Assembly (NCBI RefSeq): GCF_016904885.1
Contig: NZ_JADWYI010000001.1
Coordinates: 3,844,001 to 3,908,000 of the forward strand
Direction: 5' to 3'
From: Archangium primigenium
Lineage (GTDB): Bacteria > Myxococcota > Myxococcia > Myxococcales > Myxococcaceae
DNA length: 64,000 nucleotides
Positions 43,208-45,643 of this stretch are shown here, in pieces. Position 1 is the stretch's first letter; every line of letters starts with the position of its first letter. The position numbers and the translations under genes are program-made. The notes under the pieces were generated by a model. The model saw nothing but the letters and a program-made list of their open reading frames with translations. It searched no databases and was not told where the DNA came from.

Positions 43208-43274
43208 CGGAAAAATCCCTCCCAGAGGACCGCCTCGCCTCCGCCGTCCGCGCTCCCCGCGCGGGCGGCGTTTT

Positions 43275-43310
43275 CGTTTCCGTCTCCGTCTCCGTCTCCG
43301 TCTCCGTCCG
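43275..43310. repeat. hexanucleotide tandem repeat
   Basis: Six 6-base units: CGTTTC, four exact CGTCTC, then CGTCCG. It lies in the 226-base gene-free stretch between the DUF4388 gene and the YceI gene, about 124 bases before the latter's start. Copy number could vary by slippage and might alter promoter spacing. No gene is seen in this gap. Confidence 0.85.
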
Positions 43311-43433: not shown

Positions 43434-43970
43434 ATGAAACTCAAGCAGATGATGGCGGTGGTGATGGTGCTCGCGACGCCCGCGCTCGCGCAGGTGGAGC
43501 GCACGGGATCGGCGAGCACGGTGTTCAAGGGCAAGGGCCCGGCGGGCTTCAAGATCGAGGGGAGGACGGAGGAGCTCACCCTCAAGGACGACGGCAAGAC
43601 GGTCGTCATCTCCGTGCCCCTGGCGAAGCTGTCCACGGGCATCGACCTGCGCGACACGCACATGCGCGACAAGTACCTCCAGGTGGACAAGTTCCCGGCC
43701 GCGGTGCTGGAGGTGCCCTGGTCGGAGATCAAGCTGCCCGAGGCGGGCCAGAGCCTCACCCAGAAGGTGAAGGGCAAGCTGACCCTGCACGGCCAGACCA
43801 AGGACGTGGTGGCCGAGTACGTCATCAAGCGCAACGGAGACGTCTACGAGGCGACGGGCCAGATGCCGGTCAACTTCAAGGACTTCGGCATCGACGTGCC
43901 CAACTACATGGGCGTGACGGTGAAGCCCGACCTCGAGACGAACACCTCGTTCCACTTCAAGAAGAGCTAG
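43434..43970 (+). CDS. YceI-family periplasmic protein
   Basis: A 178-residue exported protein (signal peptide ending TPALAQ). The YceI lipocalin-like pattern is visible: ASTVFKGKGPAGFKIEGRT, IDLRDTHMRDKYLQVDKFPAAVLEV, GKLTLHGQTKDVVAEYVIKRNG and FGIDVPNYMGVTVKP. YceI proteins bind isoprenoid-type or amphiphilic molecules; some occur next to cytochromes b561. GGGAG lies 7 bases before the ATG. The porin-cytochrome-like gene starts 13 bases after the stop codon, so the three genes 43434-45643 form one operon. Confidence 0.93.
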   Translation: MKLKQMMAVVMVLATPALAQVERTGSASTVFKGKGPAGFKIEGRTEELTLKDDGKTVVISVPLAKLSTGIDLRDTHMRDKYLQVDKFPAAVLEVPWSEIKLPEAGQSLTQKVKGKLTLHGQTKDVVAEYVIKRNGDVYEATGQMPVNFKDFGIDVPNYMGVTVKPDLETNTSFHFKKS

Positions 43971-43982
43971 AGGCCGTAAGCC

Positions 43983-45155
43983 ATGCGTCAGTTGTTCGTC
44001 GTCGTCGTCCTGCTCGGACTGCTCGCTCCGGCGAGCGCCCGGGCCTACCCGTGGATGATCCGCCACGGGTATTCCAGCTGTGCCGCGTGCCACACGGACC
44101 CCTCGGGCAACGGGCTGCTCACGCCCTATGGACGGGCCCAGTCCGAGCTGCTCCTGGCGGCCACTTACGGCAAGGTGAAGGAGGAGGTGAGTCCCTCCAC
44201 GAGCTTCCTCTTCGGCGCGGTGCCGCTGCCGGAGTGGTTGAACCTGGGGCTGTCCTTCCGCGGAGGCGCGCTGGTCAACAAGGTGCCCACGAGCGACGCC
44301 CGGGTGCGGCCGCTGCAGATGGCGAGTGATTTGCGGGGCCAGGCCACCTTCGGCCAGTTCCGCGCCAACGCCAGCGTGGGCATCGCGGTGCGCCGCGCCC
44401 TGCTCGCCTCCCTGACGCCGTGGGAGGGCAACAACATCGTGTCCCGTGAGCACTGGCTCGCCTGGGACAACGAGGAGCAGACGGTGGTGGTGCGCGCGGG
44501 CCGCATGAACATCCCCTTCGGCCTGCGCAACGCGGAGCACACCACCTGGGTGCGCGAGCGCACGCGCACCGACACCAACGAGCACCAGCAGTACGGCGCG
44601 GCCGTGGCCTACAACGGGGACGGCCTGCGCGGCGAGTTGATGGCCATCGCCGGGAACTTCCTGCTCAACCCGGATCTCTACCGGGAGCGCGGCTACGCGG
44701 GCTACCTCGAGTGGTCGCCGCGCTCGGACCTCGCCCTGGGCGTGAGCAGCCTGACCACGCGGGCGCGCTATGACGTGGACACGCGGCTGGCCGGCTTCTG
44801 GCGCCAGTCGCACGGCCTGTTCGGCCGGTGGGCGGTGGCGCGCCCGGTGGTGCTCATGGCCGAGGCGGACGTGCTCGTCAACGCCTCGCGCGAGCAGGAC
44901 ACGGGTCTGGGCTTCACCAGCCTGCTCCAGGCGGACGTGGAGCCGGTGCAGGGCCTGCACATCCTCCTGTCCGGCGAGACGCTCACGCCCGTGGGCAACC
45001 TGGGCACCAGCGTGGGCGCGGGGCTCGGCGTGGGCTTCGTCTTCCTGCCCCAGTTGGAGCTGCGCTTCGATGGTTTCGCCCGGCGCTCGCCCCTGCCGGG
45101 CGGCGGCGGCTCCCAGTCCTTCACCGTCCTCTCCCAGCTGCACCTCTCCCTATGA
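43983..45155 (+). CDS. outer-membrane beta-barrel-like protein with N-terminal CxxCH
   Basis: A 390-residue exported protein. Immediately after the signal peptide (cleaved near SARA) is GYSSCAACHTDPSGNG, with Cys33, Cys36 and His37 forming a c-type heme motif. The rest has amphipathic alternating strands of a porin-like barrel (GLSFRGGALVNK, RGQATFGQFRANASVGIAVR, QYGAAVAYNGDGLRGELMAIAG) and ends QLHLSL. It would place a single c-heme at the periplasmic mouth of a barrel. The stop codon overlaps the ATG of the next gene (ATGA). YceI lies just upstream. Heme attachment is inferred; the CxxCH could also bind metal. Confidence 0.88.
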   Translation: MRQLFVVVVLLGLLAPASARAYPWMIRHGYSSCAACHTDPSGNGLLTPYGRAQSELLLAATYGKVKEEVSPSTSFLFGAVPLPEWLNLGLSFRGGALVNKVPTSDARVRPLQMASDLRGQATFGQFRANASVGIAVRRALLASLTPWEGNNIVSREHWLAWDNEEQTVVVRAGRMNIPFGLRNAEHTTWVRERTRTDTNEHQQYGAAVAYNGDGLRGELMAIAGNFLLNPDLYRERGYAGYLEWSPRSDLALGVSSLTTRARYDVDTRLAGFWRQSHGLFGRWAVARPVVLMAEADVLVNASREQDTGLGFTSLLQADVEPVQGLHILLSGETLTPVGNLGTSVGAGLGVGFVFLPQLELRFDGFARRSPLPGGGGSQSFTVLSQLHLSL

Positions 45156-45643
45156 AAGCGCTCCTGAATCCCGGCTCCCGTCGCGCCCTGGCGCGGGCCT
45201 CCGTCCTGGGTCTCGCCCTGTGGGGGGCCTCGCCCGCGTGGGCGACGGGGGAGTACCCCGACATCCTTCAATCCACGCTGAGCCTGCCGTCCTACCCCTC
45301 GTGCGCCCTCTGTCATCAGGGGCCGCAGGCGGTGGGCACGGTGGTCACGCCCTTCGGCATGTCCCTGCGCGCCCGGGGGCTGGTGAGCTTCAACAACGCG
45401 TCCTTGCGCTCGGCCCTGGAGAAGCTGGAAGCCGAGAAGGTGGACAGCGACGGGGACGGCGTGCCGGACATCGAGGAGCTCAAGACGGGCCGGGATCCGA
45501 ACCGGGCCGAGGCCACCGGCGGGGACGGCGAGCCCATCCTCGAGGAGGTGCTGCCCGAGCCCACGTATGGCTGTGGCGTGGCCCCGGGCGGACTGTCCCT
45601 GGGGCTGGCGGGCCTGCTGCTCGTGCTCAAGCGGCGCCGCTGA
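45152..45643 (+). CDS. MYXO-CTERM protein with CxxCH and calcium loop
   Basis: A 163-residue exported protein. The signal peptide is cleaved near AWAT. A CxxCH motif, YPSCALCHQGPQ (Cys51, Cys54, His55), resembles a c-type heme site; a thrombospondin-3/EF-like loop DSDGDGVPDIEEL (98-110) follows; the C-terminus is a MYXO-CTERM sorting signal with YGCGVAP, a hydrophobic helix and KRRR. Such tails are processed by myxosortase and anchor proteins on the cell surface. Its start overlaps the stop of the barrel gene, so the two are translationally coupled. It could carry an exposed heme near the barrel; this is inferred. Confidence 0.9.
   Translation: MKALLNPGSRRALARASVLGLALWGASPAWATGEYPDILQSTLSLPSYPSCALCHQGPQAVGTVVTPFGMSLRARGLVSFNNASLRSALEKLEAEKVDSDGDGVPDIEELKTGRDPNRAEATGGDGEPILEEVLPEPTYGCGVAPGGLSLGLAGLLLVLKRRR

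Follow-up and report, generated by a model that had tools for sequence, protein, structure and literature searches.

A conserved operon of Myxococcota combines a predicted divergent relative of the Cyc2 cytochrome-porins with a YceI-family protein and a small CxxCH protein

The window (the whole 64,000-nucleotide stretch of the Archangium primigenium genome that was analyzed) contains a three-gene operon that is real and conserved and whose central product is related, though divergently, to a known kind of protein, the fused cytochrome-porin Cyc2, and comes with a new set of partners. The operon is apparently undescribed, as a literature search, outside which most subscription journals lay, recovered no paper on the module. 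The features of the locus are as follows.

43242 to 43270, + strand: terminator-like hairpin with a T-rich tail, between the upstream DUF4388 gene and the trio (from a consensus scan only)
43434 to 43970, + strand: YceI-family periplasmic lipocalin-like protein, 178 aa, with a signal peptide (Pfam PF04264)
43983 to 45155, + strand: predicted fused cytochrome-porin, 390 aa, with a signal peptide, a CxxCH domain, and a 16-strand barrel (AlphaFold2 [AF2] and profiles)
44046 to 44135, + strand: heme-type domain of the barrel protein, residues 22 to 51, YPWMIRHGYSSCAACHTDPSGNGLLTPYGR, with CAACH at residues 33 to 37
44499 to 44564, + strand: barrel segment with the highest conservation, residues 173 to 194, a probable inward-folded constriction loop (62/62 invariance, AF2)
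45152 to 45643, + strand: ORF3, small CxxCH protein with a calcium-type DxDxDG loop and a MYXO-CTERM-like tail, 163 aa

The coordinates and reading frames of the three genes in the original prediction proved exact, as did the operon junctions that it described: 12 bases separate the YceI stop (43970) from the start of the barrel gene (43983), and the TGA of the latter (45153 to 45155) overlaps the ATG of ORF3 (45152 to 45154) in an ATGA. The GC content at third codon positions (0.98, 0.95, and 0.91 for YceI, barrel, and ORF3, respectively) indicates that all three are real coding frames. Given the hairpin upstream and the opposite strand of the genes downstream, the trio looks like a self-contained operon. 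A sigma-70 promoter scan at the locus gave no match, and no iron-oxidation or respiratory genes adjoin the operon. Between the hairpin and the YceI start there is a hexanucleotide repeat, CGTCTC (5.7 copies, 96% matches, 43275 to 43308), that could make expression of the trio variable. The assignment of the first gene to the YceI family was confirmed by the Pfam model PF04264 (64.7 bits versus a gathering cutoff of 23.7), and its nearest solved relative is 3q34. YceI proteins carry octaprenyl compounds or ubiquinone-8 (PMC9113575).

The conserved neighborhood on which the idea of a module depended was recovered: of 145 genomes of the order, 37 carry the three genes as a unit. In this search, the barrel (E <= 1e-5) was found in 40 genomes, ORF3 in 38, and a high-scoring YceI in 37. 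With a relic (G048), a paralogue (G084), a very distant member (G143), and a weak ORF3 match (G128) left out of the trio count, all three genes are found at the cutoffs used (E < 1e-20 for YceI, E < 1e-10 for ORF3) in the same 37 genomes and none in the other 108, a contrast that is not to be read as a probability, since the YceI and ORF3 cutoffs were set after the data had been seen and the genomes are related. The argument for co-inheritance is the all-or-none pattern inside genera in which the trio is confined to some of the species. In 35 of the 37 trio genomes, a single contig carries both YceI and the barrel, and in 32 of these the two are at most 131 bp apart. A broader scan of about 85,000 species genomes recovered 69 loci, nearly all from Myxococcota, with two from Bacteriovoracaceae. 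ORF3 follows the barrel in 60 of the 69, and YceI lies no more than 150 bases upstream of the barrel in 31 of the 61 loci with enough sequence (no more than 2 kb in 36). The barrel/ORF3 junction shows the same four-base overlap in several relatives and a gap of about 1 to 47 bases in others. No full-length barrel lacking CxxCH, which would have spoken against the proposed heme, was found: the motif is kept in all 66 barrel homologues with the N terminus present, three further ones being cut by a contig end and standing outside this count. It is likewise present in every ORF3 copy examined, including four that at first seemed fragmentary, two of which lack the less constant calcium-type loop. 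Thus, with the trio recurring in 37 genomes and the CxxCH invariant, the observation goes well beyond chance, and a fortuitous CxxCH in the barrel protein can be rejected.

In distant lineages, YceI and the barrel are still neighbors, and next to them stands a CxxCH lipoprotein of a different type. In two genomes (G143 and G189), the set consists of a CxxCH lipoprotein, YceI, and the barrel, and the Bacteriovoracaceae operon (L118 and L119), which places the module outside Myxococcota, comprises the barrel, a TPR-type gene, YceI, and a CxxCH lipoprotein. The presence there of a differently typed anchored CxxCH protein beside the YceI-barrel pair makes the strongest case that the second heme protein is important. 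Several myxobacterial loci, a minority, additionally carry a lipoprotein with about three CxxCH motifs between YceI and the barrel. A tblastn search of plasmids with the barrel gave no match. The G048 relic (L155, 2568 to 3383) has about 160 barrel residues fused in frame to the ORF3 sorting tail and lacks the CxxCH parts and YceI.

The barrel protein had no family match above a curated cutoff, and a PDB sequence search with its profile gave no match; Porin_O_P was the commonest weak Pfam match (10 of 23 homologues). An AF2 model built with 23 homologues (pLDDT 78, pTM 0.76) shows 16 long strands after a low-confidence N-terminal region, and structural ranking with VIA-align was led by OprO and OprP (Z about 25, root mean square deviation 2.8 to 2.9 A over 300 residues), with other 16-strand porins close behind. 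The original prediction had envisaged a closed barrel with the CxxCH at its periplasmic mouth. The model supplies the former, as a 16-strand barrel, and does not locate the latter, because its N-terminal part is not confident (the heme domain, with a pLDDT of about 46 to 65, is the lowest-confidence part); the periplasmic position would follow only from the usual porin topology. An outer-membrane barrel headed by a c-heme-type motif is supported. CAACH lies directly after the signal peptide (...ARA/YPWMIRHGYSS, the slash marking the predicted cleavage site), and the 11-residue spacing from the predicted mature N terminus to CxxCH is fixed in 60 of 62 homologues. A possible resemblance of this mature N terminus (YP...) to cytochrome f is a lead; a search of PDB sequences for it gave no match. 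Within the barrel, R182, H186, and R191 are invariant in all 62 homologues and fall in residues 173 to 194, which are probably an inward-folded constriction loop and include a helix (184 to 194) in the AF2 model. Together with the likewise invariant M113 and Q202, they may line the pore. Candidates for the second heme ligand are H186, M113, M25, and H28 or the mature N terminus.

This architecture is that of Cyc2, a fused mono-heme cytochrome-porin with an OprO/P-type 16-strand barrel, for the modeling of which OprO and OprP served as templates, and with the motif AXPXFAR[Q/K][T/Y], described as unique to Cyc2, upstream of CxxCH (PMC8406198). We compared the two by means of a short probe sequence based on this published motif, with which a search of plasmids recovered six Cyc2-type proteins; five of these are followed by a gene with a c-type cytochrome annotation. 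The match of the heme domain of the window protein to a profile of the six has a probability of 97% and extends across about 32 columns, beginning at the A-x-P that follows the signal peptide and ending at LTPYGR; single Cyc2 sequences gave 92 to 95%. As controls, 12 CxxCH segments were taken from ordinary cytochromes c encoded at the same loci; they reached 7 to 54% over 9 to 16 columns, and a profile built from them reached 50% over 14 columns. In the reverse direction, the only match of the six-Cyc2 profile in the 9.49-Mb genome was the heme domain of the barrel gene (E = 0.007), and in a phylum-wide search the profile matched at this position in over a dozen trio genomes. The register between the signal peptidase site and CxxCH in the barrel homologues is also that of all six Cyc2 proteins. 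Both kinds of protein thus consist of a signal peptide, one CxxCH directly after it, a short domain ending in LTPYGR or LTPFGR, and an OprO/P-like barrel, here of 16 predicted strands, and the length of 390 aa lies above the FeGenie filter for Cyc2 (at least 365 aa).

The two also differ. In place of PxFAR[QK][TY], the window protein has AYPWMIRHGY, and no FAR[QK][TY] occurs in the homologues listed; the PxL shortly after CxxCH is absent (CHTDPSGNGLL); and hhalign gave no alignment between the barrel parts, so that barrel-to-barrel sequence homology is rejected and the homology claim is confined to the heme domain and the common porin fold. The partners differ as well, being YceI and a MYXO-CTERM CxxCH protein here and a soluble c-type cytochrome for Cyc2, and, unlike the Cyc2 hosts Acidithiobacillus and Mariprofundus, the host here is not a known iron oxidizer; the trio hosts are heterotrophic soil predators. 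With the defining motif missing, plain membership in Cyc2 is rejected in favor of a divergent relative. We conclude that the heme domain, judged by these profile comparisons, shares common descent with that of Cyc2 and that the architecture is the same. The trio of the original prediction, which would have been an unusual minimal conduit, is real, but the kinship between the heme domain of its barrel protein and Cyc2 had gone unseen.

Further Myxococcota barrels can be aligned with the clade from end to end (99.9%, 359 columns), and their heme domain, of the form P.FA.R.G..C..CH, is closer to Cyc2. One such group (L153, L154, L156, L157, and L162; genomes G084, G154, G160, and G131) starts with P.[FL]A.R.G..C..CH..(x)GGG.RN.[FY]GR, is homologous to the clade along the whole barrel, and has no YceI or ORF3 match in roughly 6 kb around each member. 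Two related barrels (L160, 2632 to 4185; L164, 943 to 2904) have two N-terminal CxxCH motifs and are candidate di-heme fused cytochrome-porins. Four Myxococcota genomes without the trio (G137, G009, G038, and G033; L179 to L182) carry Cyc2 matches that cover the full length or nearly so (E = 1e-86 to 1e-140), and the phylum search with the Cyc2 profile gave dozens of further matches to the heme domain only.

As had been proposed, ORF3 contains CALCH (residues 51 to 55) followed by a calcium-type DSDGDGVPD and a YGC-hydrophobic-RRR tail. All three parts of a sorting tail (Cys motif, transmembrane helix, and Arg cluster) are present and suggest a surface-sorted partner; the score against the MYXO-CTERM model TIGR03901 is 15.3 bits versus a cutoff of 20, and this model matches 13 of 21 ORF3 homologues at E <= 0.1. 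MYXO-CTERM proteins are targeted to the surface via a predicted-lipidated cysteine, myxosortase, and the type II secretion system (PMC11980579). AF2 folds ORF3 into a compact helical domain (pLDDT mostly 90 to 98 over residues 41 to 120). It had no family match above a curated cutoff, a fold search against the PDB gave no match, and a PDB sequence search recovered only EF-hand-like matches at chance level. The N-terminal CxxCH and calcium-loop region of the GEGP motif-containing diheme protein NF041762 weakly resembles ORF3 (20 of 21 homologues), but NF041762 is longer and diheme, and ORF3 scores far under its cutoff (19 versus 300 bits). Elsewhere in the window genome (L170, C1:5471655-5471936), a two-CxxCH protein with an ORF3-like first part (CxxCH, NAYG, and calcium loop) is likely a relative of this diheme family. 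No Met or His beyond the CxxCH histidine is conserved in ORF3, so a heme there would be five-coordinate or borrow a ligand.

We consider it probable that the trio encodes an outer-membrane module for one-electron exchange, with a divergent, Cyc2-like fused cytochrome-porin as its basis. This reading starts from features seen in the sequences or the model (signal peptides, invariant CxxCH motifs, an OprO/P-type barrel, a Cyc2-related heme domain, the ORF3 sorting tail, and co-inheritance). Heme c would, to judge from the motifs, be attached to both the barrel protein and ORF3; the genome has three cytochrome c assembly protein matches (PF01578). The N-terminal 50-residue domain would plug the periplasmic mouth of the barrel, as has been argued for the Cyc2 heme domain, where dissolved Fe2+ is to enter the pore (PMC8406198). 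The redox partner would be small and soluble (Fe2+, a different metal ion, or an organic compound acting as reductant or oxidant); it would enter the pore and swap an electron with the plug heme, while the surface mono-heme ORF3 would capture, release, or pre-oxidize this partner at the outer face. YceI would carry a quinone or isoprenoid in the periplasm, in the role that a soluble cytochrome normally plays for Cyc2. Oxidation of an external reductant is slightly favored as the direction of electron flow, by the Cyc2 precedent only; a flow in which quinol from YceI reduces an external acceptor would fit as well. A more specific version, in which YceI, the Cyc2-like plug heme, and the surface mono-heme protein would form, in that order, a minimal outer-membrane path that connects the quinone pool with the cell surface and dispenses with a periplasmic cytochrome chain, is a doubtful possibility, and the same doubt attaches to its corollary that the surface protein would be of the MYXO-CTERM type here or a lipoprotein cytochrome in other lineages.

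Several known systems share parts of the trio, and some suggest other functions for it. The multiheme conduits MtrCAB, PioAB, and MtoAB also pair an outer-membrane barrel with c-type cytochromes, but they contain about ten hemes, and their barrel has about 26 strands; with one CxxCH per protein and 16 predicted strands, a conduit of the MtrCAB type is rejected. BcnA is a YceI protein proposed as a scavenger of oxidized lipids or quinones, and in the BcnA/LcoA lipocalin-cytochrome b561 system it is genetically tied to a cytochrome (PMC9113575), albeit a b-type inner-membrane one, with the barrel missing. By this precedent, the trio might serve envelope redox defense, with YceI scavenging oxidized lipids or quinones and the two heme proteins disposing of electrons or peroxide. 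The want of a conserved distal Met or His in ORF3 fits this alternative, as a five-coordinate heme there could react with H2O2, O2, or NO, but the fusion of a heme domain to a pore is left unexplained and the distribution of the trio is patchy; we regard it as unlikely.

The original prediction had placed one heme at each face of the barrel as a direct conduit, and the co-inheritance of two conserved CxxCH proteins on opposite faces speaks for such a conduit. Electron tunneling in proteins requires two hemes to lie within about 14 A. The barrel protein has a single CxxCH, extra multi-CxxCH lipoproteins occur in only the minority of loci noted above, and one heme on each side of a membrane-spanning 16-strand barrel would be too far from the other for tunneling; the Cyc2 heme domain was itself judged too small to span the membrane (PMC8406198). 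Direct heme-to-heme transfer across the membrane is therefore unsupported and, in our estimation, quite improbable.

That the CxxCH motifs are metal- or disulfide-type sites and the operon encodes an ordinary uptake porin with accessory proteins would agree with the low model confidence at the motif, but is very unlikely given the invariance of the motif in exported proteins, the profile relation to Cyc2, a demonstrated heme protein, and the cytochrome c assembly protein matches in the genome. Equally remote is the idea that the trio feeds electrons to oxidative enzymes outside the cell, such as lytic polysaccharide monooxygenases (LPMOs), by analogy with Cellvibrio Cbp2D/Cbp2E (X158), where Cbp2D joins a YceI-type, ubiquinone-binding domain to c-type cytochrome domains (PMC8981238) with a presumed redox role outside the inner membrane: the window genome does encode one LPMO_10, but Cbp2D is a multidomain secreted protein with a carbohydrate-binding module, a part that the trio lacks, and no porin, and across the 145 genomes LPMO_10 shows no association with the trio (10 of 37 trio genomes versus 45 of the 108 without it; Fisher P = 0.12, the trend running the wrong way), so the link is rejected.

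Cyc2 serves as a marker of iron oxidation, and published searches retain only proteins with PxFAR[QK][TY]. The clade described here, and the related Myxococcota barrels with a P.FA.R.G..C..CH-type start, would drop out of such motif-filtered searches, so fused cytochrome-porins may extend beyond iron oxidation in both taxonomy and function. The conserved operon with YceI offers a testable role for a common protein family with a disputed physiological partner, and a genetically accessible system for the study of electron exchange by an outer-membrane porin with one heme. With the module as predicted, soil-living predators may possess a means of electron exchange with their surroundings. If the minimal path holds, it would represent a new branch of fused cytochrome-porins in heterotrophic predatory bacteria.
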